Source: Novosphingobium barchaimii LL02 (GTDB lineage Bacteria; Pseudomonadota; Alphaproteobacteria; Sphingomonadales; Sphingomonadaceae). Taken from it: a stretch of DNA of 64,000 nucleotides. Both the position numbers and the translations under genes were made by a program. This document shows positions 730 to 62,994 of this stretch, one piece after another; within the stretch, counting starts at the first letter, position 1; every line of letters starts with the position of its first letter. The stretch covers positions 764,040 through 828,039 of the forward strand of contig NZ_KQ130453.1 in NCBI RefSeq assembly GCF_001046635.1, read 5' to 3'. Below the pieces are notes generated by a model. That model searched no databases, was not told the origin of the DNA, and saw only the letters and a list, made by a program, of their open reading frames with translations.

Positions 730-746
730 TGTCCGTCCTGCGGAGA
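730..746. promoter_or_regulatory. candidate IclR-regulon operator (TGTCCGTCCTGCGGAGA)
   Basis: This 17-mer fits the recurring TnTCCG-N5-CGGAnA pattern with both half-sites intact. It lies between the VOC gene start (643) and the end of the PrpD-family gene (756), so it could act on the VOC gene. Assignment rests on similarity to the perfect palindrome at 23509-23525. Confidence 0.4.
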
Positions 747-755
747 AAATTCGCT

Positions 756-2132
756 TCAGCCGATCACGCCGCTGCTGCGCAACATCGCCACCGCATCCGC
801 AGCCTTCGGCAACTGCGCGATGGTATCGGCCAGGGCGGCATGACCGTCCTCCATCTGCGCGAAGGCCAGACATCCGCGCGCCTTGGCGAGATGCTCGGCC
901 TCGCTGAGTGGCCACTCCGGCGAGCCGAACTGCGCGAGTACATCTTCAACCAGTTCGCGCCCGTCCACGGTGCGCGCCGCAGCCCGCGCCGGGACAAAGG
1001 CGGCAAGGTCAGGGTTGCCGTCCGCGACCACGCGGATACGCGCCGCCAGAGCCAGCACGGCGGGATCGTCCAGCGTACCGCGTTTGAAATCGCCGAGCGA
1101 CACGGTGCCGCGCAGCAAGGTCACAGCCGCGAGGAACGGGAGGCACAGCCGCGCATAGCCAGGCTCCATTCCTGGTTTCGCAGGCCGTCCAACCAGCCGG
1201 TGGATTAGCGGGGGCGCATGATATTCCAGACTGTCCAGCCGATCGGCAGTGAGCCCATGAAGCGCCATCAACCGCTGCACCGAAACGATGCCTCCATGGC
1301 CCGCGCGGCCGGTCGGAAACGGCTTCCAGCTGACTTCGGTGATTCTGTGTCCCTGCTCCAGCCGCGCCAGCGCGGCGGCCAGTTCCTCGCGCTTCTCCAT
1401 CAGCGCGAAGTACCCGAACGGGCCGTCCAGCGGATGAGCCACGCCCGGCATCCCTGCCCGTGCGAGATCGACGGCATCAAGACTGCTGCGCGCCGCATGG
1501 GCGACCTGCACCGGCAGCGCCGGCTTGCCTTCCAGATGGGCCTGCATCGTACCCGAAGCAAATGCCATGGCATGGCCGAATGCATCCAGCGCCACGTCAC
1601 GCGGCATAGCCCGCAGACTGGCGATAGCCGCCACGCAGCCGAAAATACCTGCCGTCGCGGGACGGAAGAACATCAGCGCATCGGGCGCTGCGATTCCCAG
1701 CGTCACCGCCACATCAACACCTGCGACCATCGCCGTCAGGAACTGTTCGCCGCTGACTGGATCGCCCCGCTCCGCCTCTGCCAACAATGCTGCCAGAACC
1801 GTTGCCATCGGGTGCAGCACGGCGGGTTCATGAACGCAGTCATATTCCTGCCCGTGGATCTGGAAGGCGTTGACGAACGCCGCCGAAGGCGCAGGCAAGC
1901 GAACACCGGGGCGGCCCAGCACACCGGCGGCCTCGCCCTCTCCCCACCCCCGCACCATGGCGAGCACGCCGTCGGCGTGGGGGGCATTGCGCCCCGCCAC
2001 ACCAACCGCGAGACTATCGTGAAGGAAGATCAGCGCCTTATCCCGGGCCGTGGCGGGAATGTCTTCCCAGCGTAGCGCCAGCGCATGATCGATCAGCACA
2101 TGGGCGGGATTGCCAGCCTGCGCATCCGCCAT
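756..2132 (-). CDS. MmgE/PrpD family protein
   Basis: The 458-residue product has the family's usual length and features: an all-helical N-terminal domain with KALIFLHDSLAVGVAGRNAPHADG, then VNAFQIHGQEYDCVHEPAVLHP, which resembles the family's conserved HxxDxDD/HP region. Known members are 2-methylcitrate dehydratase, cis-aconitate decarboxylase and iminodisuccinate epimerase, all acting on branched or substituted di- and tricarboxylates. The gene is last in a minus-strand operon after a HapK-like protein and an SDR, with one base between the SDR stop and this ATG and a GAGGAG site upstream. A dehydratase or decarboxylase acting on a carboxylic-acid intermediate is likely; the substrate is unknown. 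Confidence 0.85.
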   Translation of the reverse strand: MADAQAGNPAHVLIDHALALRWEDIPATARDKALIFLHDSLAVGVAGRNAPHADGVLAMVRGWGEGEAAGVLGRPGVRLPAPSAAFVNAFQIHGQEYDCVHEPAVLHPMATVLAALLAEAERGDPVSGEQFLTAMVAGVDVAVTLGIAAPDALMFFRPATAGIFGCVAAIASLRAMPRDVALDAFGHAMAFASGTMQAHLEGKPALPVQVAHAARSSLDAVDLARAGMPGVAHPLDGPFGYFALMEKREELAAALARLEQGHRITEVSWKPFPTGRAGHGGIVSVQRLMALHGLTADRLDSLEYHAPPLIHRLVGRPAKPGMEPGYARLCLPFLAAVTLLRGTVSLGDFKRGTLDDPAVLALAARIRVVADGNPDLAAFVPARAAARTVDGRELVEDVLAQFGSPEWPLSEAEHLAKARGCLAFAQMEDGHAALADTIAQLPKAADAVAMLRSSGVIG

Positions 2133-2133
2133 C

Positions 2134-2955
2134 TCAGTGCGGCTCCTCGCCGCCAGACACGTTCATGCTCTCTCCGGTGATGTAGGCAGCCTCGTCCGAG
2201 CAGAGGAAGGCAACGGCGCTGGCGGTATCCTGCGGCAAGCCCGGGCGCCCCATCGGGATGCGCCCCGCCATGCGTTTCAGGTATTCCTCGACCGAGATGC
2301 CCTGCAACTCGGCAAAATGCTCGTTCTGCCACTTGCCAAGGCCCGTGGTGACATGGTTGGGGCACACGTTGTTGACCGTGATCCCCTCCGGCCCCAATTC
2401 GATCGAAGCAGAGCGGACCAGCCCGACAAGGCCGTGCTTCGACGCCGTATAAGCCTGCGCATGGGGAAAGCCGGATTTGGCGGCCTGGCTGGCGATGTTG
2501 ACGATGCGCCCCCCGCGTCCTTGCTTGATCATGCGCTCGGCAGCGGCCTGCAGGCCGAACCACGCGCCGGTCAGGTTCACATCGATCACCGCGCGCCAAT
2601 CGTCCGGCGAAACTTCGCCGAGCGGCTTCATGATATAGCCGATGCCCGCATTGTTCACCCAAATGTCCAGCGAACCATGCGTAGTAATTGCATGATCGGC
2701 CAGCGCCGCTACCTGCGCCGGATCACGCACATCGCAGGCAAAAGTGGACGCCTGCGTCGGCAACGATGCGGCGATGTCCTGCATTTCCGCAGTGCCGCCG
2801 ATCATCGCGTCTGGCGTCGCCGCATCGCGTGATCCGCCGATATCGGAAATGACCAGCTTTGCGCCTTCCTCGGACAGGCGGCGGGCGATCGACTCGCCCA
2901 GCCCACCCTTGCGGCCCGATCCGGTTACGACCGCGACTTTGCCCGCGAACCTCAT
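2134..2955 (-). CDS. SDR family NAD(P)-dependent oxidoreductase
   Basis: The 273-residue product is a classical short-chain dehydrogenase. It carries the Rossmann motif TGSGRKGGLG near residue 11, the NNAGIG motif, and the catalytic YTASK pair with an upstream Ser. Such enzymes interconvert alcohols and ketones with NAD(P)H in the cytoplasm. The start overlaps the stop of the HapK-like gene by ATGA, so the two are translationally coupled, and the PrpD-family gene follows directly. A Gly-rich loop with an extra Lys/Gly is slightly unusual but common in this family. The substrate is probably an oxygenated acid or ring intermediate of the pathway. Confidence 0.9.
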   Translation of the reverse strand: MRFAGKVAVVTGSGRKGGLGESIARRLSEEGAKLVISDIGGSRDAATPDAMIGGTAEMQDIAASLPTQASTFACDVRDPAQVAALADHAITTHGSLDIWVNNAGIGYIMKPLGEVSPDDWRAVIDVNLTGAWFGLQAAAERMIKQGRGGRIVNIASQAAKSGFPHAQAYTASKHGLVGLVRSASIELGPEGITVNNVCPNHVTTGLGKWQNEHFAELQGISVEEYLKRMAGRIPMGRPGLPQDTASAVAFLCSDEAAYITGESMNVSGGEEPH

Positions 2956-3260
2956 GCGGTCAGTTCCTCGGTGGTGAGGAAAGTCACTTCGACCATGCCT
3001 TGGAACACGGCGGCCACTTCCTGCATCGCGGCGGCTGAAACATCGGCGCCGAACTGGTCCATGTCCTTGACGTCCAGCACTTCGATATAGCCGAACGGCG
3101 GCGGCGCATCGCTGCCCAGGACGCCGGTCGTGCGGAAAACACGAAAGCTCTCGATCGAGGCAAGGGCGTTGACGGTGGGCAGATCCGACTTCTTGGCCCA
3201 GGCTTCGTATGCTTCCACCGAGACACCCGGCTTCAGGTTGAACAGCGCGAAAATCAGCAT
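2952..3260 (-). CDS. HapK/RedY-like small protein
   Basis: A 102-residue protein beginning MLIFALFNLKPGVSVEAYEAWA, followed by DLPTVNALASIESFRVFRT and a FGYIEVLDV strand. This matches REDY-like proteins named after HapK/RedY of prodigiosin-type pathways, a dimeric alpha+beta barrel (ferredoxin-like) fold. The reading frame could extend 16 residues upstream, but the ATG at 3260 has an AGGA site and begins the conserved strand. It is first in an operon with an SDR and a PrpD-family gene (ATGA overlap). The biochemical role of RedY-like proteins in catabolic clusters is not established; they may help an oxidation or a ring tautomerisation. Confidence 0.7.
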   Translation of the reverse strand: MLIFALFNLKPGVSVEAYEAWAKKSDLPTVNALASIESFRVFRTTGVLGSDAPPPFGYIEVLDVKDMDQFGADVSAAAMQEVAAVFQGMVEVTFLTTEELTA

Positions 3261-3275
3261 TTCGTAAGTCCTTCC

Positions 3276-3292
3276 TCTTCGCCTGCCGGACA
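3276..3292 (-). promoter_or_regulatory. candidate IclR-regulon operator (TGTCCGGCAGGCGAAGA)
   Basis: On the minus strand this 17-mer differs by a few bases from the sites at 32021 and 37737. It sits only 16 bases before the HapK-like start codon, a position that would favour repression of the HapK-SDR-PrpD operon. Confidence 0.45.
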
Positions 3293-3331
3293 ATGCCGCC
3301 ACGCGCACTTGCTTCCGCCTCTCAGGCCATA

Positions 3332-3349
3332 TATCATAACACTATAACA
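3332..3349. promoter_or_regulatory. candidate operator, TGnTATA-N4-TATAnCA (site 2 of 3)
   Basis: TATCATAACACTATAACA has one perfect half-site (TATAACA) and one degraded half-site. It lies in the divergent gap between the HapK-like operon and the methyltransferase operon, 14 bases before the GTG of the latter. TATAAC could also be a -10 box for the plus-strand promoter. Confidence 0.3.
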
Positions 3350-3362
3350 AATGAGGTAGGCC

Positions 3363-4963: not shown

Positions 4964-6369
4964 GCCAGCCGTTTGAAATCACCGTTCCCGTGCTGGTAGT
5001 CGGCGGCGGCGCCTGCGGCTGCGTTGCGGCGCTTTCGGCGCATGAAGCCGGCGCGCAAGTGCTGCTGGTGGAACAGGACGAACGACCCATGGGGTCGACC
5101 GGCATGTCGCAGGGTCTTGTCTGCGCGGCCGGAACGAAATCGCAGGCGGAACACGGCATAGAAGATGATGCCGACCGCTATTATGCCGATATCATCGCCA
5201 AGACGCGCGGGCTGACCGACCCAGTTCTCGCCCGCGCAATCGCCGACCATGCCGGGCCGGCCGTGGACTGGATGATCGAGTCTCTAGACATGCCATGGCA
5301 GCTCGATACCGGCTTCCGCCCCGCCTATGGCAACAGCGCCTACCGCGTCCACGGCTGGCGCGGCCATAGCGGGCAGGACATGGTTGACCTGCTTCACCGC
5401 CGGTTGGACGATGCCGGCATCGATGTCCTTCTAGGCGCCCGGCTCAGCGAAGTTCACGCCGACGAAAACGGACGGATACTGGGCGTTTCGCTGTCTCGGC
5501 CCGATGGTTCGGTTGAGCGCATCGGCTGCGGCGCGCTTGTGCTCGCCTGCGGCGGCTTTGCGGCCAACCACGCCATGGTCGCGCGCTACATGCCTGAAAT
5601 GGCTCATGCCCGAAACAACGGCCACGAAGGTAGCCAGGGCACCGCCGTGCGCGTGGGCGAACAGCTTGGCGCCATGCTCGGCGATATGGCCGCCTATCAG
5701 GGCTATGCCATGCTGACCGAACCACAGGGCATACCGGTTCCGCCGGGGGTTCCGGTGGAGGGCGGCGTGCTCGTCAACATGGCGGGCGAACGCTTCGTCG
5801 ACGAAACCGCGGACATCGCCGGCATGGTGCACCCGGTGCTGGCGCAGGAAGGCGATCACGTATGGGTGGTCTTCGACGGGCGGATCGAGGCGGCCGCCGA
5901 TTATATCCCCGAAATGCAGCAGCTCAAAGCGCTCAACGCTCTGAAAAAGGCCGATAGCGCAGCCGATCTGGCCGAAGCCATCCGCGTTCCTGCCAGCGCA
6001 CTTGAAACCGCACTAGCGGAAGCGAAAGCGGCGCAAAGCGAAGGTCGGCCCGATGCCCTGGGACGCCTGTGGGGCGATGACGTGCCTCCTTCGGGAAGCT
6101 ACCGCGCACTCAAGGTCGTCGGCGCGATCTTCCATACCCAGGGCGGTTTGCAGATAGACGGCGAGGCCCGCGTTGTCCGCTCCGATGGTTCGCCCCTGCC
6201 CAACCTTTTCGCCGGCGGCGGCGCTGCGCGTTCGGTCTCCGGCCCCGCGCACTGGGGTTACCTGCCCGCGATGGGGCTTGCCACGGCGGTGACGTTCGGA
6301 CGGCTCGCAGGCCGGGCTGCGGCGCATACCGCACTCACCTGCGGCGAGGCCGAATTCTCCGACAGGTGA
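4960..6369 (+). CDS. FAD-dependent dehydrogenase, fumarate reductase flavoprotein/KstD type
   Basis: A 469-residue flavoprotein whose ATG overlaps the preceding stop. VLVVGGGACGCVAALSAHEAG near residue 12 is the dinucleotide-binding motif, followed by the acidic strand end EQDERPMGSTGMSQG. GALVLACGGFAAN and the C-terminal NLFAGGGAARSVSGPAHWGYLPAMGLATAV are typical of the FAD_binding_2 family. Members include fumarate reductase, 3-ketosteroid 1-dehydrogenase and urocanate reductase, which add or remove hydrogen next to a carbonyl. It ends the methyltransferase operon. Reaction likely a C-C desaturation or reduction of an activated double bond; the substrate is not known. Its stop codon lies inside a candidate operator (6356-6372). 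Confidence 0.85.
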   Translation: MSQPFEITVPVLVVGGGACGCVAALSAHEAGAQVLLVEQDERPMGSTGMSQGLVCAAGTKSQAEHGIEDDADRYYADIIAKTRGLTDPVLARAIADHAGPAVDWMIESLDMPWQLDTGFRPAYGNSAYRVHGWRGHSGQDMVDLLHRRLDDAGIDVLLGARLSEVHADENGRILGVSLSRPDGSVERIGCGALVLACGGFAANHAMVARYMPEMAHARNNGHEGSQGTAVRVGEQLGAMLGDMAAYQGYAMLTEPQGIPVPPGVPVEGGVLVNMAGERFVDETADIAGMVHPVLAQEGDHVWVVFDGRIEAAADYIPEMQQLKALNALKKADSAADLAEAIRVPASALETALAEAKAAQSEGRPDALGRLWGDDVPPSGSYRALKVVGAIFHTQGGLQIDGEARVVRSDGSPLPNLFAGGGAARSVSGPAHWGYLPAMGLATAVTFGRLAGRAAAHTALTCGEAEFSDR

Positions 6370-6372
6370 GCA
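6356..6372. promoter_or_regulatory. candidate IclR-regulon operator (TCTCCGACAGGTGAGCA), upstream of a tandem pair
   Basis: This 17-mer overlaps the stop codon of the flavin dehydrogenase and begins 21 bases (two helical turns) before a second copy at 6377. Together they precede the FAD oxidase gene at 6464. The tandem, same-face arrangement is what cooperative binding would require. Confidence 0.4.
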
Positions 6373-6376
6373 TCTT

Positions 6377-6393
6377 TATCCGACTGGCGCGCA
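6377..6393. promoter_or_regulatory. candidate IclR-regulon operator (TATCCGACTGGCGCGCA)
   Basis: The left half-site TATCCGAC is identical to that of the perfect palindrome at 23509. It is 70 bases before the ATG of the FAD oxidase and forms a 21-base-spaced tandem with the element at 6356. Confidence 0.45.
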
Positions 6394-10552: not shown

Positions 10553-10556
10553 TGGC

Positions 10557-14200: not shown

Positions 14201-15418
14201 TCAGCGGATCTGCGAAGCCAGCGCCAGGCTCTCGTACATGGCCTGCCGCATCATGTAAGCGCGCCGGGCAGTGTCATCCTGCTTGATGGCCATCATGGCT
14301 TCGCGGCGGCGCTTATGCGCATCGTCCTGACCGCCGCGGATCATCGCCATGTTTTCCTTGGTCTGCGTCTGGGTGAAGCTATGCGTCACCTCGCGACGCT
14401 GACGGTCGTAAAGCGCGAGGTTCTCCTCTGCGACGGCGGCCGAAACCTGGCCCTTCAGCACCGGCAGCAGCTTTTCGAACAAATTGAAGGCATCGTGCAC
14501 GCCTGAATTCATGCCGAACCCGCCCAGCGGGTTGTTGAGATGGGCGGCATCGCCCGCCAGCAGCACCCGGCCCTCGCGGAACGACTTCGCGACGCGCTGA
14601 TGGACGCGGTAGAGCGTGCGGTGCCTAGTCTGCACCATCGACCCGTCCCCGACGAGGCGGCCGAAGATCGCATCCTTCATGGCATCCGAACGCAGTTCGT
14701 CATCGCTGAGCGTTCCATCGGTCGGCACCAGTACGCGCCACAGCGAAGGTACGCGCAGCAGCACCAGCCACTCATCGGGATCGGAGACATAGTTGACCCA
14801 CGCCAGGTTCGGCAGGTGGGCGGCAATGTCGAACTCGGTCGAAAGGCAAAGGAACCGCTCGGCGTAAGTGAAACCGTCAAATTCAATGCCGAGCCACTTG
14901 CGTACCACCGAGTTCGCACCGTCCGCGCCAATCAGGTAATCGCAGCGCAGGCGCTCGATGCCGGTCATCGTCTCGATCGCGAGGTTCACGCCCTCGGCGT
15001 CTTCCTCGAAAGCCAGCAGACGGCTGCCGAAGCGGACCTGCGCATTGCCCTGCTTTTCGAGGCCCGACGCCAGCGCGCGCGAAAGGTGGTACTGTTCGCA
15101 CTGGATGCGGAAAGGGTAGCGGCTGACGTCGCTGATCTCGGCAAGGTCGAAGTCGATAACTTCGCCGGAATGCCGGTCACGCCAATGGAAGACGGGCGCC
15201 TTCAGGCCCTTTTCGAGCAGCATCGGAGTGATCCCGATCTGGTCGAGCATTTCCAGCGTGGGCGGATGGAAGGTCGAGGCGCGCAGATCCTGTGCGCAGT
15301 CATGGCCCGTCTCGATGACGACCACGTCGATACCCGCCTGCGCCAGCAGCGTCGCCATAACCGTTCCGACCGGGCCGGCCCCCGCAATCGCCACCTGGCA
15401 CCTTCCAACCGCTGTCAT
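14201..15418 (-). CDS. FAD-dependent monooxygenase, PHBH/UbiH type (copy 1)
   Basis: A 405-residue group A flavin monooxygenase with a GGAG site. It shows VAIAGAGPVGTVMATLLAQAG (FAD), LIGADGANSVVRKWLG (DG motif) and VLLAGDAAHLNNPLGGFGMNSGVHDAFNL (GD motif). Such enzymes hydroxylate electron-rich rings using NAD(P)H and O2. The product is over 70% identical by eye to that of 47956-49164, through the whole length, so the two are recent duplicates with perhaps different substrates. The C-terminal helix (HKRRREAMMAIKQDDTARRAYMMRQAMYESL) is shared by both and lacks the thioredoxin-like domain of larger relatives. The racemase-fold gene follows; a candidate operator lies at 15498. Confidence 0.88.
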   Translation of the reverse strand: MTAVGRCQVAIAGAGPVGTVMATLLAQAGIDVVVIETGHDCAQDLRASTFHPPTLEMLDQIGITPMLLEKGLKAPVFHWRDRHSGEVIDFDLAEISDVSRYPFRIQCEQYHLSRALASGLEKQGNAQVRFGSRLLAFEEDAEGVNLAIETMTGIERLRCDYLIGADGANSVVRKWLGIEFDGFTYAERFLCLSTEFDIAAHLPNLAWVNYVSDPDEWLVLLRVPSLWRVLVPTDGTLSDDELRSDAMKDAIFGRLVGDGSMVQTRHRTLYRVHQRVAKSFREGRVLLAGDAAHLNNPLGGFGMNSGVHDAFNLFEKLLPVLKGQVSAAVAEENLALYDRQRREVTHSFTQTQTKENMAMIRGGQDDAHKRRREAMMAIKQDDTARRAYMMRQAMYESLALASQIR

Positions 15419-15497: not shown

Positions 15498-15514
15498 TAT
15501 CCGCCTCGCGGTGA
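15498..15514. promoter_or_regulatory. candidate IclR-regulon operator (TATCCGCCTCGCGGTGA)
   Basis: It lies 80 bases before the PHBH-type monooxygenase start. The paralogous monooxygenase at 47956 has nearly the same element (TATCCGACGCGCGGTAA) at the same place, 77 bases before its start. The rest of the 268-base gap 15419-15687 holds only the hairpin at 15632 and a weaker similar motif near 15549. Confidence 0.5.
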
Positions 15515-17259: not shown

Positions 17260-17276
17260 AATTCGCTTGGCGGATA
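17260..17276 (-). promoter_or_regulatory. candidate IclR-regulon operator (TATCCGCCAAGCGAATT)
   Basis: In the divergent gap between the aldehyde dehydrogenase and hydantoinase operons, 66 bases before the former. The left half-site is intact; the right half is degenerate. Confidence 0.4.
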
Positions 17277-23443: not shown

Positions 23444-23508
23444 CCGCAAAGCAGGACCCGCGCTGCAAATGCCGATGGGCGGATTGGTTCCCGCCTATCG
23501 GCTTTATC

Positions 23509-23525
23509 TATCCGACAGTCGGATA
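23509..23525. promoter_or_regulatory. perfect palindrome TATCCGACAGTCGGATA, probable IclR operator
   Basis: Two 8-base arms (TATCCGAC and GTCGGATA) around a single A, 76 bases before the ATG of the IclR gene. It is the best copy of the motif found throughout the window, as expected for the autoregulatory site of the regulator itself. Confidence 0.65.
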
Positions 23526-23601
23526 ATAGCTTGATTAATTCGAGCAAACGTCATTCTCTTGTCACTCTCTCTTCATCGCAAGAAACTGACAGGGTCTGAT
23601 A

Positions 23602-24396
23602 ATGGAAAAAGGGGTTCCAATTCGCTCTATCACGCGTTCGATCGCGGCATTGAAAGCCATCAACCGACACGGTTCGCTCTCCATGATGGAGATCGCCAAG
23701 GCTTCCGAAGTGCCCTATCCGACCGCGTGCCGCATCGTTCAGACCTTGCTTTATGAAGGCCTGATCGAGCAGGAGCCCGCGCGCAAGCGCTACCGCGCGA
23801 CCGCTATGGTCCAGACACTGGCCACCGGATTTCAGCATGACGACGAACTCGTCCGCTTGGCCCGTCCGCATATCGTTGGCCTGACCAAGCGCGTCGGCTG
23901 GCCGGTCTCAATAGCGATTCGCGTGGGCCGCGAGATGATGCTGCGCGATTCGACGCACTCGAACTCGTCGCTGACGTTTGAGCGGTATTACCCCGGCTTT
24001 ACGCTGCCGATCCTCGATAGCGCCTCAGGGAAGGTCTCGATGGCCTATGCTCCCGACGATGAGCGCGAAATGATCCTGCGCTTCATGCGTGTCTCGCAGG
24101 AAATCGACCTCAACTATCTCGCCACCGCCGAAGTCAGCCTGGATGTCGAGCGCATCCGTGCTGAAGGTTACGCGGTGCAGGGCCGTAACCACTTCAACCT
24201 GACGCCGGGCAAGACCTCGTCGATCTCGGTCCCGATCTTCCGCAATGGGCACTTCGAAGCGGCGATGACCATGGTGTTCTTCGTGGCAGCCATGCGGCTT
24301 TCGCAGGCGCTGGAACTCTACCTCGACGATCTGCGCGCGACGGCCGCTGCGATCAGTCACGACCTGTCGAACCCGATGCCGATGGGCAACGCCTGA
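23602..24396 (+). CDS. IclR family transcriptional regulator
   Basis: A 264-residue regulator. Residues 1-70 form the winged helix-turn-helix (SLSMMEIAKASEVPYPTACRIVQTLLYEGLIEQEPARKRYRAT). Residues 80-250 form the GAF-like effector domain (PHIVGLTKRVGWPVSIAIRVG, SASGKVSMAYAP, SSISVPIFRNGHFEAAMT). Within IclR, the MhpR/HcaR group of aromatic-acid regulators is similar. It is the only regulator gene in the window, and a perfect palindrome lies upstream. Related degenerate copies precede most operons here, so it is the best candidate for island-wide control, either as activator or repressor depending on ligand. Confidence 0.92.
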   Translation: MEKGVPIRSITRSIAALKAINRHGSLSMMEIAKASEVPYPTACRIVQTLLYEGLIEQEPARKRYRATAMVQTLATGFQHDDELVRLARPHIVGLTKRVGWPVSIAIRVGREMMLRDSTHSNSSLTFERYYPGFTLPILDSASGKVSMAYAPDDEREMILRFMRVSQEIDLNYLATAEVSLDVERIRAEGYAVQGRNHFNLTPGKTSSISVPIFRNGHFEAAMTMVFFVAAMRLSQALELYLDDLRATAAAISHDLSNPMPMGNA

Positions 24397-27134: not shown

Positions 27135-28058
27135 TCAGCCCTTGCTCTCGAGTTGGCCGGGAATGTGCGACTCGTGGTTCTGAAGATACCACTCGGCGAT
27201 TTCCTCACGGGTGGCCCACCAGACGCCCGGCAGCGACTTGGCGTGTTCGATGAATTCACGCAGCGCCCGCACGCGGTGGGCGCGGCCCGAGACATGCGGA
27301 TGCAGGCCCACGTTCATGATACGGCCTGTCTTCGCACCCTCGGCATAGAGCACGTCGAGTTCCTCGATCAATGCATCACGGAACTGGTCGGTGGTGAAGT
27401 TTTTGCGGGTGATGAAGGTGAAGTCGTTGATCTCGTTCGAATAAGGCACCGAAACGATCGGGCCGTTCGGCGTGCGCAGCAGGAACGGCTGGTCGTCGTT
27501 CATGATGTCGCAGTAGAACGTGCAGCCCTGCTCCGCCAGAATGTCGGCCGTCTGCATCGTGCCGCGCAGCGAGGACGAGAGCCAGCCCTTCGATTTGCGG
27601 CCGGTGAACTTCTCAAACTGCTCAAGGCTGCGCATGACGATGTCGCGCTCCTTCTCCGGGTGGTGGGCGAAGTTGGTCAGCAGTTCGCCCTGCTCCCAGT
27701 TATGGGTCAGCAGTTCCCAGCCGCGCTCAAGCACGGCGTCGGTCATTGCCTTGCGGCGCTCGAACGTCACGGCGTTGGTGGTGCAGCTGGCCGGAACGCC
27801 CAGTTCGTCGAACAGTTCGAACAGGCGCCAGATGCCTACGCGCTGGCCGTATTCGCGCCAGGTGAAGTTCGGAAAGTCAGGCGTATTTCCGGGCAGTACA
27901 TCGGGCAGGATCGCCGGGCCGCCCGCGTAATAGGGCTTGTCTGTGTCCTTGGTAAGGTCCCAGGTTTCAAGGTTGAACGTCAGGATCAGGGCAACCCGCG
28001 CGTCGTTCGGCCACTTGAGGGGCTTACGCTGCGGAAGGGGGACGTAATCGTATTCCAT
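27135..28058 (-). CDS. polysaccharide deacetylase (NodB)-like hydrolase, PuuE/cyclic-imidase group
   Basis: A 307-residue NodB-fold protein. LTFNLETWD stands where the family's first metal motif lies, LLTHNWEQGELL carries the His, and NVGLHPHVSGRAHRVRALREFIEHA matches the C-terminal HPxxxGRxxR motif of PuuE allantoinase and bacterial cyclic imide hydrolases. WREYGQRVGIWRLFELFDELGVPASCTTNAV is also typical. These enzymes open hydantoin-like or imide rings and not polysaccharides. It leads an operon with a FAD monooxygenase and an ALDH. A ring-opening hydrolase of a cyclic imide or ureide is inferred. Confidence 0.78.
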   Translation of the reverse strand: MEYDYVPLPQRKPLKWPNDARVALILTFNLETWDLTKDTDKPYYAGGPAILPDVLPGNTPDFPNFTWREYGQRVGIWRLFELFDELGVPASCTTNAVTFERRKAMTDAVLERGWELLTHNWEQGELLTNFAHHPEKERDIVMRSLEQFEKFTGRKSKGWLSSSLRGTMQTADILAEQGCTFYCDIMNDDQPFLLRTPNGPIVSVPYSNEINDFTFITRKNFTTDQFRDALIEELDVLYAEGAKTGRIMNVGLHPHVSGRAHRVRALREFIEHAKSLPGVWWATREEIAEWYLQNHESHIPGQLESKG

Positions 28059-28156
28059 GGGACAATTCTCGCTTACGACTTGTTACAGGACCCGAACCAT
28101 AATCCAGGCATCCTTCCCCACCCCCGCGCCGCGAATCTCCGACTTGCGATCAAAGG

Positions 28157-29777: not shown

Positions 29778-29794
29778 TGCCCATCAGGCGGATA
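29778..29794 (-). promoter_or_regulatory. candidate IclR-regulon operator (TATCCGCCTGATGGGCA)
   Basis: Sits 113 bases before the amine oxidase start and just past the stop of the alpha/beta hydrolase gene. Left half intact, right half moderate. Confidence 0.35.
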
Positions 29795-31245: not shown

Positions 31246-31262
31246 TGGCCGATAGGTGGACA
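31246..31262. promoter_or_regulatory. weak candidate IclR-regulon operator (TGGCCGATAGGTGGACA)
   Basis: In the divergent gap between the VOC gene (start 31166) and the unknown gene at 31337. It shares CCGA-AGGTGGAC with the site at 62978. Confidence 0.3.
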
Positions 31263-32020: not shown

Positions 32021-32037
32021 TCTCCGGCAGGCGAACA
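32021..32037. promoter_or_regulatory. candidate IclR-regulon operator (TCTCCGGCAGGCGAACA)
   Basis: Lies in the 103-base gap before the alpha/beta-fold gene at 32118. It differs from the 37737 site at three positions, one of the closest pairs in the set. Confidence 0.45.
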
Positions 32038-32117: not shown

Positions 32118-32975
32118 ATGAATTCGAGCCAGTTGCCTGCCAAGCCCATCACCCGGCGCGGCTATGCCGACGGTCCTTTCGGGCAGGTCCATTACCAGAA
32201 CCTGGGAGACGGCGCCCCTCTGCTGCTGCTGCATCAGGCTCCCATGACATCCTCGCAGTTCGACTATGTCTATGAGCCGCTGGCCCGGCGCGGCTTCCGG
32301 GCGATCGGCATCGACATGCCCGGCTTCGGCGGTTCAGATGCCACTCCCGATACACCGACCATCGGCGACTATGCGCAGGTCGTGCCCGCAGTGCTCGATG
32401 CGCTGGGGTTGGAGAAAGCCGCGATCCTCGGCCACCATACCGGCGCGCTCGCCGCCACCGAGGCGGCTGTCGTGTTCCCTTCGCGAGTGAGCGCGCTCAT
32501 CATCAATGGGCCCCTGCTGGTCGACGAAGCCGGCCTGCGCGAATTCATGGAAGGCCTGCACGAGAAGGAAAAGGCCTTCCATGCAGAACCCGAAGCGGGC
32601 CACATCGTCAACATCGTCAAGGTGCGCGACTGGTTGGCGAAAGGCGCGATCCCGCCCGAACGCCTGAGCGACTACGCGGTTCAGGCGCTCGTGGGCCGGG
32701 GCGCATATTGGTGGGGCCATCACGCTGCGTTCACGTACGATCAGGCCGCCCGCCTGCCACTGGTGACCCAGCCGGCCATGATCCTCACCAATACCGGCGA
32801 CGTGATCCACAACCATGCACCTGCCGCCCATGCACTCCGCCCCGACTTCGCCTATGCGGCCCTTGAAGGCAGCGGCGTGGACATCGTCGACGAACAGCCC
32901 GAAGCCTGGGCCGATGCCGTAGCCGCGTTCCTGCACCCGGCCGGAAATACTCTCCAGGCGGATATTACAGCCTGA
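32118..32975 (+). CDS. alpha/beta-hydrolase-fold protein with G-x-H-T-G elbow (2 of 4)
   Basis: A 285-residue protein: GQVHYQNLGDGAPLLLLHQAPMTSSQFDY, AIGIDMPGFGGSD and the elbow ILGHHTGALAATEAA, with His in the nucleophile position. The acid loop TNTGDVIHNHAP is present, but the C-terminal region GSGVDIVDEQPEAWADAV lacks a catalytic His. So two of the three triad residues are missing. An AAGGTG site precedes the ATG. Similar in length and motifs to those at 29821, 53784 and 56050. Cytoplasmic (no signal). Not a standard esterase. Confidence 0.8.
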   Translation: MNSSQLPAKPITRRGYADGPFGQVHYQNLGDGAPLLLLHQAPMTSSQFDYVYEPLARRGFRAIGIDMPGFGGSDATPDTPTIGDYAQVVPAVLDALGLEKAAILGHHTGALAATEAAVVFPSRVSALIINGPLLVDEAGLREFMEGLHEKEKAFHAEPEAGHIVNIVKVRDWLAKGAIPPERLSDYAVQALVGRGAYWWGHHAAFTYDQAARLPLVTQPAMILTNTGDVIHNHAPAAHALRPDFAYAALEGSGVDIVDEQPEAWADAVAAFLHPAGNTLQADITA

Positions 32976-33061
32976 TTTTCAGGGCGCACCGGAGCGGCGC
33001 GTTACGACCTTATTGCGTACCTCACCGCCGAAGCGCCCACTGGTTGAAGGATAGAACAAAC

Positions 33062-34093: not shown

Positions 34094-34110
34094 TGCCCGC
34101 TGGTCGGAGA
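34094..34110 (-). promoter_or_regulatory. candidate IclR-regulon operator (TCTCCGACCAGCGGGCA)
   Basis: On the minus strand in the 85-base gap before the second LeuC-like gene (ATG 34161). Left half intact; right half GCGGGCA fits the consensus. Confidence 0.4.
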
Positions 34111-36849: not shown

Positions 36850-36866
36850 TCTCCGCCGGGCGGTCA
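36850..36866. promoter_or_regulatory. candidate IclR-regulon operator (TCTCCGCCGGGCGGTCA)
   Basis: In the 72-base gap before the SDR gene at 36916. A GCCGGGC/GCCCGGC hairpin (36855-36879) overlaps it, so a structural explanation for the similarity is possible. Confidence 0.3.
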
Positions 36867-37710: not shown

Positions 37711-38079
37711 ACGACCGCCCTTTTCTCACCCCCATGCATCCGACAGGCGAACACGCATCAATTTCGCCGTCATTCTGACGAGACTCAAGTAAATCTATCA
37801 GTGCAAGAAAAGGCGGTACGCCGCCCCACCAGGCCAAAACCGGACAACAGGGAAGACGATTCAAAAGCACATTCGCTTTCACGCAATGATGCGATCCAAT
37901 ATCAGAAAACAAATATACAATATTAAATATATGTATTTCGAAACAGTACGGACATCGAGTTAGAAAGCTGCACTCAAGCAGACTTCACTCGCTGCCGATA
38001 AAAACAAGTGTTCAAGCAGCAGGGACTCGATTTAGAGCGACGCGCACCGTGCGTCCTTTGATTAGCATTGAGGGAAAAC
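37711..38079. other. 369-base AT-rich intergenic leader before the TonB receptor
   Basis: No gene is seen here. It starts GC-rich, carries a candidate operator at 37737, and turns AT-rich from about 37880, with stretches such as ATATTAAATATATG, in contrast to the rest of the window. Promoter and 5' leader of the receptor gene are expected here. No riboswitch fold was recognised. Confidence 0.7.
37737..37753. promoter_or_regulatory. candidate IclR-regulon operator (CATCCGACAGGCGAACA)
   Basis: Sixteen of 17 positions match the common form TATCCGACAGGCGAACA. It lies after the SDR stop and about 330 bases before the TonB receptor, farther upstream than in most units. Confidence 0.45.
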
Positions 38080-40798: not shown

Positions 40799-41857
40799 CT
40801 ATCCAGGCACAACGTCCAGCGGCGGGTCGATCGCATCGGCAGCGGAATTGGCGCGTGCGGATGCCTTCACCCTGTCGATCAGGCCAATAAGGCGCGCGGC
40901 GTCGTGGCCGGTCGGACAGCGGTGCACCTCGCCCCGCACGGCAGCGACGAATTCACGCAGCTGATCGCGGAAATAATGCTCCAGCTTGCGCCCGCCCATC
41001 GCGCGCGGATCGATCAGCACGCCTTCGGGCGGCGCAACCAGGACGTCGCCGTTCCAGCTGAGGATCTCGCCGTGTTCGATCTCGAGCACGCCCTTATCAA
41101 AATGCAGCACCTTGCGATCGAGGACTGAGGGCTGGTTATAGGAAATATGGACGCTCGCCATACGGCGGCCGGGATAGGCCATGAGGATCATCGCCTCGTC
41201 CTCTCCCTGCCAGCCGGACTGGTGGCGCGCCGCCTCGACATGGACCCGCACAGGATCATCCTGTCCCATGACAAGCTGGACGAAATCCAGCGCGTGCGGC
41301 GCGAACAGGGAAAGGATCAATCCTTCCTCGGGCTTGCGCTCTGCCCACCACGGTGCCTGCGGGCCGTCCCACTTGACGCAGGATGACACTTCCAGCGTAC
41401 GCAGGCGGCCGAAGCTTTCCTGGTTGTCCATGATATGGCGGACGGCGGCATTGTGACGGAACGTGTGCCCGGCCGCGAGAACCAGTCCGCGCGCCTCGGC
41501 CTCGCGCGCCAGGGCAGCGGCCTGCTCTCCGGTTTCGGCCACCGGCTTTTCGACGAGAACGTGGCGCCCTGCCCGCAGCGCCGCGAGGCACTGCTCGGCA
41601 TGGAGGGCATTGGGTGTGGCCACCAGCACCGCCTCCACCTCGGGCAAGGCCAGCGCCTCGTCCAGCGAAGCGAACGCGGGCGCCCCCGCCGGTTTGGCCG
41701 CGGCCTGTGCAGCGGAAAGGTCTGCATCGACCGCAGCCACAAGGCGAACCTGAGCCGGCAGCGCAGCCACGGCGGCAAGATGCGCACCAGATATGCGGCC
41801 GCAGCCGATGACCGCAATCCCTAGAGGGCCGGTAGGAAAATTTTTCAGTTCAGCCAT
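40799..41857 (-). CDS. Gfo/Idh/MocA family oxidoreductase
   Basis: A 352-residue protein from the ATG at 41857 (GGAAG upstream); one at 41869 would add four residues. IAVIGCGRISGAHLAAVAALP is the NAD(P) motif, and VEKPVAETGEQAAALAREAE is the EKP motif typical of the family. GHTFRHNAAVRHI and APHALDFVQLVMG carry the usual catalytic His region. Members act on sugars, inositols and also biliverdin and dihydrodiols. It appears monocistronic, with a candidate operator at 41934. Substrate unknown. Confidence 0.88.
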   Translation of the reverse strand: MAELKNFPTGPLGIAVIGCGRISGAHLAAVAALPAQVRLVAAVDADLSAAQAAAKPAGAPAFASLDEALALPEVEAVLVATPNALHAEQCLAALRAGRHVLVEKPVAETGEQAAALAREAEARGLVLAAGHTFRHNAAVRHIMDNQESFGRLRTLEVSSCVKWDGPQAPWWAERKPEEGLILSLFAPHALDFVQLVMGQDDPVRVHVEAARHQSGWQGEDEAMILMAYPGRRMASVHISYNQPSVLDRKVLHFDKGVLEIEHGEILSWNGDVLVAPPEGVLIDPRAMGGRKLEHYFRDQLREFVAAVRGEVHRCPTGHDAARLIGLIDRVKASARANSAADAIDPPLDVVPG

Positions 41858-41933: not shown

Positions 41934-41950
41934 TGTCCGATGGCCGAACA
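41934..41950. promoter_or_regulatory. candidate IclR-regulon operator (TGTCCGATGGCCGAACA)
   Basis: Seventy-six bases before the Gfo/Idh/MocA start and only three bases from the terminator of the DUF1838 gene. The order terminator-operator-gene gives a clean unit boundary. Confidence 0.4.
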
Positions 41951-43143: not shown

Positions 43144-43160
43144 TGGTCGCCAAGCGGATA
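43144..43160 (-). promoter_or_regulatory. candidate IclR-regulon operator (TATCCGCTTGGCGACCA)
   Basis: In the 180-base divergent gap between the DUF1838 and methyltransferase 2 genes, 84 and 81 bases from their starts. Could serve either. Confidence 0.4.
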
Positions 43161-47584: not shown

Positions 47585-47601
47585 TCTCCGCACAGCGGAC
47601 A
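47585..47601. promoter_or_regulatory. candidate IclR-regulon operator (TCTCCGCACAGCGGACA)
   Basis: TCTCCG-N5-CGGACA keeps both half-sites as an inverted repeat. It is 89 bases before the GPH transporter start and 11 bases after the DUF1330 stop. Confidence 0.5.
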
Positions 47602-49240: not shown

Positions 49241-49257
49241 TATCCGACGCGCGGTAA
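49241..49257. promoter_or_regulatory. candidate IclR-regulon operator (TATCCGACGCGCGGTAA)
   Basis: Seventy-six bases before the monooxygenase start and 34 bases before the alpha/beta hydrolase stop. It differs from the site at 15498 before the paralogous gene in only a few bases. Confidence 0.5.
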
Positions 49258-53716: not shown

Positions 53717-53733
53717 TATTCGCCTGCCGATCA
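53717..53733 (-). promoter_or_regulatory. candidate IclR-regulon operator (TGATCGGCAGGCGAATA)
   Basis: In the divergent gap between the M24 operon (start 53664) and the hydrolase operon (start 53784). Thirteen of 17 bases match the 32021 site. Confidence 0.35.
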
Positions 53734-57943: not shown

Positions 57944-57945
57944 CC

Positions 57946-59361: not shown

Positions 59362-59375
59362 GCGAAAATAGGTTT

Positions 59376-59402
59376 CGGGGCGGGCGTTATCGCCCGGCCC
59401 CG
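59376..59402 (+). terminator. hairpin after the MFS gene
   Basis: CGGGGCGGGCG and CGCCCGGCCCCG pair with one bulged base and a TTAT loop. The run after it is TTAATA, so it may be a weak terminator or a leader structure for the gene at 59427. Confidence 0.5.
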
Positions 59403-59426
59403 TTAATACACAAGGGGGGAACAGCG

Positions 59427-60419
59427 ATGACGGTCGGTCGAATTCTCAAGGCTGCGGGAGGGTTGCTCCTTGCCGTGGTCATCTTGCTGGCATTGGTGCT
59501 ACTGACGATGCGCCTGGGCTGGTGGAATCCCTCGTATGAAAGCGTGAAAGCCGCACAGGCCACCGCGCCCTCCACCTTCGAGCAGGTCGGCACCGCTAAC
59601 CTCCACATCCGCGACGAAGGCCCGCGCGGCGGTCCGGTCGTCATCATGCTGCACAGCTCGATGACCAACCTGCGCGAATGGGACGGCTGGACTGATGCCC
59701 TCAAGGACAAGTACCGCGTGATCCGCTTCGACTGGCCGCCCTACGGCCTTTCGACCGACAGCGCCCCTTCCAGCGGCATGCCCGGTGTGGTCGCCCTGCT
59801 CGAAAAGCTGGTCGAGAAGAAGGGCCTAACCCGCTTCGCACTTGTCGGCACTTCCAGCGGGGCGACCGTCTCGACGCTCTACGCCGCCAAGTATCCGGAA
59901 AAGGTCACCGCCCTGGCGCTTTCGGCGCTGCCGCTCAAGGCGCCGCCGCCGAGCGATTTCAGCCGCGTGATGTGGGCCATGGTCTGGACCCATGAGAATT
60001 TCGTGCCCAACTACTACCCGCGTTTCTACTACCGCCGCGCCCTGTCCGAACTTTACGGCCGGCCCGAACGCCTAACCGACGCGACGGTGGACTGGTACTA
60101 CCAGACCAACAACCTCCCCGGAGGCTTCGCCCGCGTGAAAGAATACTACGAAACCAACAAGAAGGTGGTCTGGGCCAAGGGCGCGGGCGACGATGCGGCG
60201 CAGGTCAAGGCGCCCATCCTGCTGCAATGGGGCGATGTCGACCCGGTCCTGCCCAAATACCTTGCCGCCGATGCGGTGAAGCAGTTCTCCGGCACCAAGG
60301 TCGACGTGATCCATTACCCTGACCTCAGCCACTATCCGATGCTGGAATTGCCGAAGGAAACCGCGAGGGACTTGCGCACCTGGCTGGATCGCACCGTGCC
60401 CGCCGGGGCTCCGCGGTGA
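59427..60419 (+). CDS. membrane-anchored alpha/beta hydrolase, Ser-triad form (3 of 4)
   Basis: A 330-residue protein from the ATG with a strong AAGGGGGGA site. ILKAAGGLLLAVVILLALVLLTMRLGWW is an N-terminal transmembrane anchor. Triad: Ser in LVGTSSGATVSTLYAAKYP, Asp in LLQWGDVDPVLPK, His in YPDLSHYPMLE. VIMLHSSMTNLREWDGW and RFDWPPYGLSTDS are shared with the proteins at 33062, 49291 and 60802. It overlaps the next gene by GTGA. Periplasmic hydrolysis of an ester or C-C bond is inferred. Confidence 0.85.
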   Translation: MTVGRILKAAGGLLLAVVILLALVLLTMRLGWWNPSYESVKAAQATAPSTFEQVGTANLHIRDEGPRGGPVVIMLHSSMTNLREWDGWTDALKDKYRVIRFDWPPYGLSTDSAPSSGMPGVVALLEKLVEKKGLTRFALVGTSSGATVSTLYAAKYPEKVTALALSALPLKAPPPSDFSRVMWAMVWTHENFVPNYYPRFYYRRALSELYGRPERLTDATVDWYYQTNNLPGGFARVKEYYETNKKVVWAKGAGDDAAQVKAPILLQWGDVDPVLPKYLAADAVKQFSGTKVDVIHYPDLSHYPMLELPKETARDLRTWLDRTVPAGAPR

Positions 60420-60805
60420 CGGCGGCCCCGGACATTGCAGGCACCTGGGCCCTGCACGGCGCCACCCTCGGCCCCGAGGGCGACACGCTCTACGAGTGGG
60501 ATGCCGAGATGACTCTCTCAGCCAGCGCAAGCAGCTTCGCCGTCGCGATCGAAACGACGGGTTTCAAGACTTCGCGTTCGATCAGCTTCGCCGAAAAGCT
60601 CACCGCCCTGCCATCGGGCGAATGGCACTTGCGCTATGGCTACGAGGCCGACCCGGCGCACTTCGCGACCGAAAGCCACACGTTCTTCGGCCTTTCGCAG
60701 CTGACCTTTGCACCGGACCTGCAAAGCGCCGAAGGAACCTCGTGCAACTATAATGGGCGCTACGTGGTCATGCTGTTGCAGGCCAGGCGGCAGGAACCGG
60801 CATGA
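60416..60805 (+). CDS. small protein of unknown function between two hydrolases
   Basis: A 129-residue protein from a GTG overlapping the upstream stop. It reads DIAGTWALHGATLGPEGDTLYEWDAEMTLSASASSFAVAIETTGF and GEWHLRYGYEADPAHFATESHTFFGLSQLTFAPDL, mostly beta strand with an aromatic/His-rich middle. No signal peptide or known motif. A lipocalin-like or SnoaL-like small barrel would be compatible. Its stop overlaps the next hydrolase start, so it is part of a three-gene unit. Function unknown. Confidence 0.7.
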   Translation: MTAAPDIAGTWALHGATLGPEGDTLYEWDAEMTLSASASSFAVAIETTGFKTSRSISFAEKLTALPSGEWHLRYGYEADPAHFATESHTFFGLSQLTFAPDLQSAEGTSCNYNGRYVVMLLQARRQEPA

Positions 60806-61758
60806 AGGCAGTATCGGTCGCGACGGGGCTTTTGCTGGCCGCGCTCACCGCCTCATCCGCAATCGCCCAGTCGGCGCCTGCCCAGCTTGACGACGCGGCC
60901 CTGCGCAGCCGCTATGCGCTGGCCAACTCGCAGTTCGGCGAAATCGATGGAGAAACCGTGCACTATGCCGTGCAAGGCAAGGGCCCGGCGATCCTGCTGG
61001 TCCACGGCTCCTTCGCCAGTCTGCGCCAGTGGGACGAATGGGCAGCAAAACTCTCGCGCCGTTACCGGGTGATCCGGTACGATCAGTCGCCCGCCGGACT
61101 TTCGGGCCCCAGCCCAGCCGGCGACTATTCAATCGAACACCGCATCCGCGTGATCGATGGGCTGATGGACCGGCTGAAGATCGAGCGCTTCGTCATGGTC
61201 GCAACTTCCAGCGGCGGCCTGCCTGCCGCTGCCTATGCCGCCGCCCGGCCGCAGCGGGTGCAGGGGCTGGTGCTCAACAACATCGCAGTTGGCCCGGTGA
61301 AGTTCGACCTGGACGGGATGGCGCCGGCGCTCAAGGCTGCACTGGCCGAAGATCGCACCCACCCCGGCTGGCACGCCCCGGAATATTGGCGCCAGATCCT
61401 GCTGGCGAATGTCACCGACCCCTCGGGCATCACGCCTGCGCTGGTGCAGCAGTGGACCGATCTCAACAGCCGCCTCTTGCGCGATCCTGCCATCGGCAAG
61501 GCTGTGGCGGCCTCCACCTCTTTCAAGCGCGCGCCGGATGACTTGCGAGCGATCACCGCGCCCACCTTGCTGCTGTGGTCCGCCGACGACCATGAGACCA
61601 CGCTGGAGCGCGACGGCAAGCAGGCACTCTACCTGCTTGGCAGCACGGACAAAACGCTGGAGGTGGTCGAGGCATGCGGACACATGATGCCGTTCGACTG
61701 CCCCAACCGGGCGCTTGCCCGCGTGACACCGTTCCTGCAGCGTATCACCGGCAAATAA
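60802..61758 (+). CDS. exported alpha/beta hydrolase, Ser-triad form (4 of 4)
   Basis: A 318-residue protein. VSVATGLLLAALTASSAIAQSAPAQ is a signal peptide ending AIAQS. Triad: Ser in MVATSSGGLPAAAYAAARP, Asp in LLWSADDHETT, His in EACGHMMPFDCP. AILLVHGSFASLRQWDEW and RYDQSPAGLSGPSPAGDYS match the paralogues. It has the shortest and most direct triad form. It ends the unit and is followed by a terminator. Periplasmic ester or lactone hydrolysis is expected. Confidence 0.85.
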   Translation: MKAVSVATGLLLAALTASSAIAQSAPAQLDDAALRSRYALANSQFGEIDGETVHYAVQGKGPAILLVHGSFASLRQWDEWAAKLSRRYRVIRYDQSPAGLSGPSPAGDYSIEHRIRVIDGLMDRLKIERFVMVATSSGGLPAAAYAAARPQRVQGLVLNNIAVGPVKFDLDGMAPALKAALAEDRTHPGWHAPEYWRQILLANVTDPSGITPALVQQWTDLNSRLLRDPAIGKAVAASTSFKRAPDDLRAITAPTLLLWSADDHETTLERDGKQALYLLGSTDKTLEVVEACGHMMPFDCPNRALARVTPFLQRITGK

Positions 61759-61790
61759 AAAGGCCGCGCCCTGACCGGCGCGGCCTTTTT
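61757..61790. terminator. bidirectional intrinsic terminator
   Basis: AAAAAGGCCGCGCC and GGCGCGGCCTTTTT pair perfectly around a six-base loop. It overlaps the hydrolase stop codon and also serves the converging LLM gene. Confidence 0.9.
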
Positions 61791-61811
61791 ACCAGATCGA
61801 CCAGGCGCGGG

Positions 61812-62897
61812 TCAGGCCATTGCAGTTGCCAGTTCGGCATCACGCTCCGCCACTTTTGCACGCACAAGCGGGATGAGATCACGCCCGATGGCGATGACGT
61901 CCTCCACTGGGTCGAAGCCGCGCAGGATGAAGGCGGAAACTCCGGCGTCGTAATAATCCATCAGCGCATCGGCAAGTTGCTCGGGTGTCCCGACCAGCGT
62001 GCCGGAATTGCTCTGCCCGCCGCGAAGCTGGTTGATGCCGTTCCAGAAACATTTTTCCAGCCGGTCGCCCCTCGCCGCGAGTTCGGCGGTCCGTTTGAAA
62101 CCATCAGCCTTCACCGCGGCGGTGTTCGGCGCCAGCTTGCCCATGTTGGCAGCCACCGCCTCGCGGATCTCGTCGGCGCGGGCCCAGGCCGCTTCCTCGG
62201 TATCGGCGATGACGATGCGGATCGACATCAGGAAGCGCGGGCTGCGATCATAAGGCGCGGCGGCCTCGCGGACTTTGCCGACCACTTCCGTCATGCCCGC
62301 GACCGTATCGGACAGGGTGGCGAACGTGTCGCAATATTCGCCCGCCACTTCCAGCGCGGCCGGGCTCATGCCGCCGAAATAGACCGGGACTGTGCCCTGC
62401 GTGGGCTTGATCGCCGCGAAGCCACCGTTGAACCGAAACCACTTGCCCTCATGGTCGATGGGCTTGTCGCTGGTCCACATCCGGCGCAGCACCGCGATAT
62501 ATTCCTTCGCACGGTCATAGCGCTCGACTTTGGTCCGGTAATCGCCGTCGGCCTGGGTTTCCTCGTCGCTGGCTGCGGTGATGATATGAACACCGACCCG
62601 GCCCGGCATTAGCCGATCAAGCGTGGCGAGCATGCGTGCCGCCATCGTCGGCGGAATGAAGCCGGGGCGGTGCGCCAGCATGACGCCAAGCCGCTTGGTA
62701 TGGGCAGCGACATATCCGGCGATTGTGAAGTTGTCGGGCATGATCGCGGCATTGGCGACCAGTACCTTGTCGTAGCCCCAGGCGTCGTGAAGCTTGGCCA
62801 TCTCGGCGATGCCTTCGGGATCGAATATTTCGAAGGGAACGGGATGCGTCTCGCTCGAAATGTTGTGGTTGAGCAGACCGTTGATCTCGACCGGCAT
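61812..62897 (-). CDS. LLM class flavin-dependent monooxygenase, SsuD-like (copy 2)
   Basis: A 361-residue protein with a GGAGGG site. KVLVANAAIMPDNFTIAGYVAAHTKRLGVMLAHRPGFIPPTMAARMLATLDRLMPGRVGVHIITAASDEETQADGDYRTKVERYDRAKEYIAVLRRMW aligns with the LLM at 44934, as do GTVPVYFGGMSPAALEVAGEYCD and DRSPRFLMSIRIVIAD. It uses FMNH2 from a reductase elsewhere. Monocistronic, with a candidate operator at 62978. The C-terminus is slightly longer than in copy 1. Substrate unknown, probably a relative of that of copy 1. Confidence 0.85.
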   Translation of the reverse strand: MPVEINGLLNHNISSETHPVPFEIFDPEGIAEMAKLHDAWGYDKVLVANAAIMPDNFTIAGYVAAHTKRLGVMLAHRPGFIPPTMAARMLATLDRLMPGRVGVHIITAASDEETQADGDYRTKVERYDRAKEYIAVLRRMWTSDKPIDHEGKWFRFNGGFAAIKPTQGTVPVYFGGMSPAALEVAGEYCDTFATLSDTVAGMTEVVGKVREAAAPYDRSPRFLMSIRIVIADTEEAAWARADEIREAVAANMGKLAPNTAAVKADGFKRTAELAARGDRLEKCFWNGINQLRGGQSNSGTLVGTPEQLADALMDYYDAGVSAFILRGFDPVEDVIAIGRDLIPLVRAKVAERDAELATAMA

Positions 62898-62977
62898 GAG
62901 CGCGAGGCCCTCCCTGATGCTTGTTGAAGGCCCAAGTCTATGCTGGGTGAGACGCGCAGAAAATCGCGGTTTGCGAG

Positions 62978-62994
62978 TATCCGACAGGTGGACC
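62978..62994. promoter_or_regulatory. candidate IclR-regulon operator (TATCCGACAGGTGGACC)
   Basis: Eighty-one bases before the LLM start. Nine of the first ten bases equal the IclR palindrome. The rest of the 254-base gap 62898-63151 holds only this element and the terminator at 63047. Confidence 0.45.

Follow-up and report, generated by a model that had tools for sequence, protein, structure and literature searches.

Binding sites of IclR-family regulators have been surveyed comparatively by Suvorova and Gelfand (2021; PMC8222616), whose group 1 has the consensus GKTYCRYW3-4RYGRAMC, a palindrome with the core TYCR...YGRA around a centre of 3–4 nucleotides. According to the accessible text of that survey, tandem sites lie 18–22 nucleotides apart in many IclR groups, though not in all, and regulogs range from 1 to 55 clusters of orthologous groups (COGs), with 98 of 181 containing ten or fewer. 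Here we analyse a stretch of 64,000 nucleotides from Novosphingobium barchaimii LL02 (contig NZ_KQ130453.1, positions 764,040 to 828,039; hereafter the window), in which a 17-bp element recurs in the gaps between genes and an IclR-type gene, iclR (23602..24396, plus strand, 264 amino acids), encodes the proposed regulator of all sites.

An earlier inspection of the letters alone, here called the sequence-only reading, had suggested that the element marks an island-wide IclR regulon. We confirm the recurrent element itself, and we find that comparison between genomes supports the regulon: a site precedes iclR, sites co-occur and cluster with it, orthologues of site-led genes have sites more often than those of other genes, the gaps of the homologous pJE1 cluster have none, some sites are paired at 21 bp and the core fits group 1. 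The IclR protein very probably binds the repeats, which would make them its operators.

A recurrent palindrome in the gaps between genes

The nine copies quoted in the sequence-only reading are all present exactly where it placed them, the copy at 3276 on the minus strand. Its literal consensus, TnTCCGnnnnGCGnnnA, has 12 matches over both strands at 11 places, because the copy at 47585 matches on both. The element is better written symmetrically, as the 17-bp palindrome TNTCCGN5CGGANA, of which the fuller form is TNTCCGNCWGNCGGANA. In our list of 20 sites CCG at positions 4–6 is kept in 19 and G at position 13 in all 20, as had been claimed; a pyrimidine at position 12, claimed for all 20 sites of a list that was that reading's own, occurs in 19 of ours.

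The palindrome is concentrated in the gaps, which make up less than 8% of the window. With at most one mismatch it matches 10 times in the 4,930 gap positions and twice in the 59,054 coding positions; without mismatches the counts are 3 and 0. Because the copies had been gathered by eye, we enumerated all 15,360 combinations of half-site and spacing that give palindromes of the same shape (spacings 0–14) and counted each of them in the gaps. TNTCCGN5CGGANA ranks first at up to one mismatch, with 10 matches against 6 for the runner-up. At up to two mismatches it is not outstanding (19 gap matches, against 25 for the top pattern, with several GC-rich patterns equal to it or above it), and thus the strength of the motif lies in its good copies.

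The worry about selection bias was answered in a second way, by a weight matrix for which 30 other loci supplied the iclR promoters and the window none. Its sites are the best site in each promoter, picked by hand, with locus L031 left out and a site with two mismatches taken for L004; all site scores are given in bits under this matrix. With the window's own iclR site excluded, a threshold of 8 bits gives 12 matches in gaps and 2 in coding sequence, and one of 4 bits gives 18 and 7. It also recovers a site at 53717 that is absent from the quoted copies. Among the 27 gaps of at least 17 bp between called genes, sites of at least 4 bits occur in 5/5 divergent, 13/17 tandem and 0/5 convergent gaps; most transcription units have a site ahead of them. 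Gene starts were set by hand; in the gene list used from the enumeration onwards, four models had lost their frame through trimming and another, M24, had no stop.

Additionally, the sites are conserved in the closest relative, G083, whose island is colinear with the window at 93.3% identity and whose IclR protein is 99–100% identical. Across the 20 listed sites, one of them inside a gene end, 0 of 200 core positions and 3 of 100 spacer positions are changed, against 469 of 4,464 other gap positions, and the weakly scoring copies are likewise free of core changes. In this genome further sites lie to either side of the part that matches the window; the whole series runs from about 1616 to 1720 kb (~104 kb). 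At 8 bits or more, 22 matches fall in the gaps of the G083 island (6,767 positions) and 5 in its coding sequence (97,217 positions). In three 80-kb control regions of the same genome the gaps, 26,434 positions in all, have 1 match and the coding sequence has 3. Equal density within genes or in unrelated gaps, which the sequence-only reading had named as the finding that would overturn it, is therefore not seen in this relative (island against control gaps, p = 1e-14).

The IclR protein, its proposed sites and target genes across genomes

The regulator belongs to the IclR family, with Pfam matches to its HTH_IclR and IclR_C domains (PF09339, 35.7 bits, cut-off 22; PF01614, 50.7 bits, cut-off 24). 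Ten distinct solved sequences match it, most of them named IclR-type, and a phage search that did not extend to viral contigs gave only weak matches in 4 records, at 22–25% identity. A genome scan recovered 31 loci with relatives at 52–97% identity; in these 31 sequences 48 of residues 1–66, which include the DNA-binding helix, are invariant, versus 94 of the 191 later residues. That this is the only regulator gene in the window holds among the 50 open reading frames scanned with Pfam (small frames were not all scanned), and does not extend to the wider island, which LysR and GntR genes flank in G083.

The putative operator before iclR, TATCCGACAGTCGGATA (23509..23525), is a perfect palindrome and scores 29.9 bits. 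A site lies 73–96 bp before iclR, across a varying spacer, in 30 of the 31 loci (29 with at most one mismatch, L004 with two), so that a site before the regulator's own gene, as an IclR regulon would have it, is kept across genomes. A weak putative second operator (23488..23504, 2.5 bits) lies 21 bp from the main iclR site.

Sites and regulator also occur together. We scored the perfect fuller site in 149 genomes of the genus group and found it in 18 of 20 genomes with an IclR protein of at least 80% identity, and in 8 of 17 with only relatives below 60%. Where no relative reaches E 1e-40, it occurs in 16 of 112 genomes. As a control, the reversed pattern was scored as well and occurs in 11 of the 149. 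In the two genomes of the first class that lack it, G091 and G115, near-perfect sites precede iclR. The 18 genomes hold 37 perfect sites: 17 at iclR itself, 15 others no more than 60 kb from it and 5 in other places; the expected share within 60 kb is about 2.4%. The homologous cluster of plasmid pJE1 has a GntR gene and, in the 33.6-kb stretch covered, no annotated IclR; the best score in its 9 gaps is 0.2 bits.

Genes led by a site in the window tend to be led by one elsewhere. The orthologue count covered 35 other regions, G083 excluded. It used 52 of the 53 genes, all in frame; M24 was omitted, and neither iclR nor the window's final gene was counted. An upstream site of at least 8 bits precedes 124 of 232 orthologues of 21 site-led genes versus 12 of 291 orthologues of 29 other genes, and for every one of the 21 site-led genes some orthologue has a site. 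A first count with uncorrected gene models, likewise excluding G083, gave 129/237 versus 7/241. Among random 275-bp stretches from all 36 regions, iclR promoters included, 101 of 2,160 reach 8 bits. Across the 35 regions p-values are only indicative, because the regions are related and not independent. Constant targets include the amine oxidase gene (19/19) and the divergent M24/hydrolase pair (5/5 on each side).

The individual sites, all putative operators, range widely in score; orthologue fractions given with them are those of the first count, at 8 bits or more. Several sites lie between divergent genes. The site at 3276..3292 (11.9 bits) separates a HapK-like reading frame from a methyltransferase gene, and that at 17260..17276 (16.6 bits) an ALDH gene from HyuA/HyuB genes (orthologues with a site, 15/25 and 12/24). 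Divergent glyoxalase and unknown genes flank 31246..31262 (7.4 bits), DUF1838 and methyltransferase genes flank 43144..43160 (13.2 bits; 5/6 and 9/11), and the M24 and hydrolase genes flank 53717..53733 (9.5 bits).

Other sites precede FAD-binding, oxidoreductase and monooxygenase genes. These are 6377..6393 (13.3 bits) before a FAD_binding_4 gene, with a weak tandem partner at 6356, 21 bp off; 15498..15514 (13.1 bits) before the minus-strand FAD monooxygenase gene at 14201–15418 (7/16); 29778..29794 (9.4 bits) before the flavin amine oxidase gene; 36850..36866 (8.0 bits) before an SDR gene (1/5); 41934..41950 (6.5 bits) before a GFO/IDH/MocA oxidoreductase gene (1/7); and 62978..62994 (13.3 bits) before a luciferase-like monooxygenase gene (2/3). 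The site at 49241..49257 (8.1 bits) precedes a further FAD monooxygenase gene (7/17), many rows of which are shared with its paralogue at 14201–15418.

The remaining sites lead hydrolytic, transport and other functions. The site at 28136..28152 (4.8 bits) lies before a PuuE-like deacetylase gene (11/32), 32021..32037 (11.9 bits) before an alpha/beta hydrolase gene and 34094..34110 (4.7 bits) before LeuC/LeuD-like genes, where outside support is weak (2/18). An operator-like site at 32948..32964 (13.5 bits) falls within a gene end, 96 bp before a hydrolase gene at 33044 whose orthologues have a site in 17 of 20 cases. The site at 37737..37753 (16.1 bits) is 331 bp before a TonB receptor gene, and TCTCCGCACAGCGGACA (47585..47601, 5.2 bits) precedes an MFS_2 transporter gene (1/3). 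Finally, TGTCCGTCCTGCGGAGA (730..746, 4.2 bits) lies just beyond the PrpD stop and, in the G083 alignment, about 30 bp before the next gene on the minus strand.

Three further observations concern the wider distribution of sites. In the relative G070 the part that matches window positions 40799–63991 (G070:C2:290001-330000) lies about 250 kb from the iclR part, and several of its genes are still site-led; therefore the regulon need not be contiguous. Among 20 more distant IclR genes (loci L094–L111), 8, at 46–56% identity, have a site of at least 8 bits within 300 bp upstream, and L096 has sites of 29.1 and 14.0 bits. Downstream of the iclR operator, many loci show CTTGA and a TTGTCACTCT-like block, as at 23525–23570 in the window.

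Proposed mode of control and competing explanations

We propose that one IclR dimer would bind each 17-bp palindrome TNTCCGN5CGGANA, with two dimers 21 bp apart at some promoters. Besides its own gene, IclR would control the majority of transcription units in a catabolic island that spans 64 kb or more; in G083 sites occur over ~104 kb. The inducer would presumably be a metabolite of the island's substrate.

The spacing of paired sites is consistent with this arrangement. Around 112 strong sites a tandem partner at 21 bp was counted 8 times, with 0.18 expected and 3 in the next bin; the 8 counts are not independent because they partly come from one pair recurring in related genomes, which weakens the argument. 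Among the 31 iclR promoters (30 loci and the window), 10 have a partner of at least 0 bits at 20–21 bp. This spacing falls within the 18–22 nucleotides of many IclR groups.

The direction of control can be approached through promoter geometry. Of 161 sites, 107 have 60 bp or more between them and the start codon, and a -10-like TA...T occurs at offsets 51–57 from the site start in 32 of these, compared with 0–3 of 107 in other bins and 2 of 107 in total at offsets 23–50. Where recognisable, the hexamer thus lies 43–49 bp beyond the operator centre, and the operator would accordingly sit at about -55 to -61 (~-58). Activation is favoured because activators are often placed near -58, and the IclR protein probably activates its target promoters. 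MhpR acts from an activator position near -58, a point that our literature searches did not confirm.

It is rather unlikely that the same IclR protein binds these sites as a repressor and is released by an inducer. IclR regulators of aromatic catabolism are typically repressors according to the accessible text of the paper on PheR (PMC13273656). Repression would also fit the 54 of 161 sites that begin within 60 bp of the start codon, which weigh against activation in that activator geometry explains them only if starts are misplaced. However, the recognisable -10-like hexamer does not lie beneath the operator but 43–49 bp from its centre.

Several other points weigh against an activating, island-wide IclR regulon. 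No more than 9 of 23 gene families show the -10 signal, and some of its instances are orthologues of one another. The signal is absent at iclR, where no promoter could be assigned. Orthologous conservation is partial, with 108 of the 232 upstream regions of site-led genes free of an 8-bit site and some genes poor in orthologues with one (LeuC 2/18, GFO 1/7), and 5 of the 20 window sites score below 7 bits. Locus L031 (IclR at 52% identity) has no site before iclR despite an identical recognition helix, and 12 of the 20 more distant IclR genes (44–56% identity) have no 8-bit site upstream. The pJE1 contrast, moreover, is limited to the 33.6-kb stretch of the plasmid.

A different regulator, such as a LysR or GntR protein, might instead bind the sites, with iclR merely one of its targets. 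T3 and A15 of the element are separated by 11 bases, and T-N11-A is the spacing of LysR-type operators; candidates would be the LysR and GntR genes found in G083 on the flanks of the wider island. These flanking genes do not track the motif, however. A relative of the flanking LysR at 80% identity or more occurs in only 3 of the 20 genomes with an IclR of at least 80% (one more at 57%), a count that applies to that LysR only, and 10 of the 20 have a match to the flanking GntR at E 1e-50. In pJE1 a GntR gene stands beside homologous genes, yet the nine gaps have no sites. The pairing at 21 bp agrees with IclR, as does the consensus. Reading of the sites by such a LysR or GntR protein is weakened by these results, and we regard it as very improbable.

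That GC-rich gaps and gathering by eye produced the pattern, as the performance of several GC-rich patterns at two mismatches might suggest, is rejected with only a negligible chance left to it, given the enumeration, the independent 30-loci matrix, the 0 of 200 core changes in G083, the single match in 26,434 control gap positions and the empty convergent gaps.

Island content and comparison with described regulons

The island that IclR would control encodes FAD monooxygenases, hydantoinase A/B, LeuCD-like and PrpB-like enzymes, hydrolases and luciferase-like monooxygenases, together with an isochorismatase-type amidase, a relative of arylmalonate decarboxylase and the PuuE-like deacetylase. 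For the monooxygenase at 14201–15418 the nearest solved chain is PnpA and the second HspB, a 6-hydroxy-3-succinoylpyridine monooxygenase; the nearest solved chain to the island amidase is N-carbamoylsarcosine amidohydrolase. It is a guess that the substrate is a nitrogen heterocycle. Open-access searches on the substrate (dimethylmaleate hydratase with dimethylmalate lyase, pJE1, and HapK/hydantoinase/Novosphingobium) returned nothing useful.

Two of the island's genes can be noted separately. The PuuE-like deacetylase gene (27135–28058, minus strand) has matches of 86–99% in 33 of 36 regions, including L031 (87%); a core role is suggested, because the match persists even where IclR is only 52% identical. 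The small reading frame at 2952–3308 (minus strand) occupies the same place as a pJE1 gene named REDY-like protein HapK and is likened to it by position alone; we take the name HapK to be linked with prodigiosin synthesis.

We tentatively entertain, as a possibility with rather less than even support, a broader view in which one IclR protein is the pathway-specific activator of a regulon with about 25–30 operators in about 100 kb, and in which this regulon makes up a catabolic route not described before, perhaps one that degrades a nitrogen heterocycle by way of imide, amide and methylmaleate-type intermediates. The protein would then belong to a sphingomonad IclR subfamily in which relatives at 46–56% identity read the same TAT-11-ATA code in other islands.

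The regulator and its predicted operators offer a handle on a large island, since a promoter reporter could name the inducer and hence the pathway. The island is also a clean record of operator conservation, in which no core position changed between the window and G083, and pJE1 provides a natural comparison where homologous enzymes stand beside a GntR gene and have no sites. Additionally, the island is suited to the study of how one regulator gains and loses promoters as catabolic genes move between replicons.

Among described systems, MhpR and PcaR/PcaU/PobR share sites of the GTNCG-N5-6-CGNAC type and are among the best NCBIfam matches of the IclR protein. The top matches are PRK09834 models, which we take to be MhpR, with pcaR_pcaU fourth. 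The protein differs from both: its scores stay well short of the curated cut-offs (153.6 bits for a cut-off of 299, and 78.8 for one of 284.75), so that it falls outside either family as NCBIfam defines them. PheR of Sphingobium sp. SHPJ-2 (PMC13273656) is likewise an IclR-family regulator of a sphingomonad catabolic operon. Unlike the predicted regulator of the window's sites, PheR is described in the accessible text as a repressor of a phenanthrene operon, with the core GCAACG and a protected region from +23 to -21. The motif described here was not reported in the open-access literature searched, nor in the accessible text of PMC8222616, PMC13273656 and PMC12352068, the last of which presents DAP-seq of N. 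aromaticivorans with four IclR proteins, three of which gave peaks.

The closest likeness is to group 1 of PMC8222616, in particular its TGT-11-ACA subgroup, which as far as the accessible text describes it has a 17-bp palindrome of odd length with the core TYCR...YGRA and is enriched for aromatic catabolism. Compared by eye, TNTCCGN5CGGANA fits the core of GKTYCRYW3-4RYGRAMC. It does not share the outer G/C and the W-rich centre: the outer bases are T/A, the central bases in the 161 sites are C (0.75), W (0.86) and G (0.85), and only the middle one of the three is mostly A/T. The strongest sites here, TAT...ATA, lie outside the four subgroups listed in that survey, and the packing of many operators into one locus also sets this system apart from the groups as the accessible text presents them. 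As judged from these sequence comparisons, the predicted system is a large, compact new regulon under a known kind of regulator.

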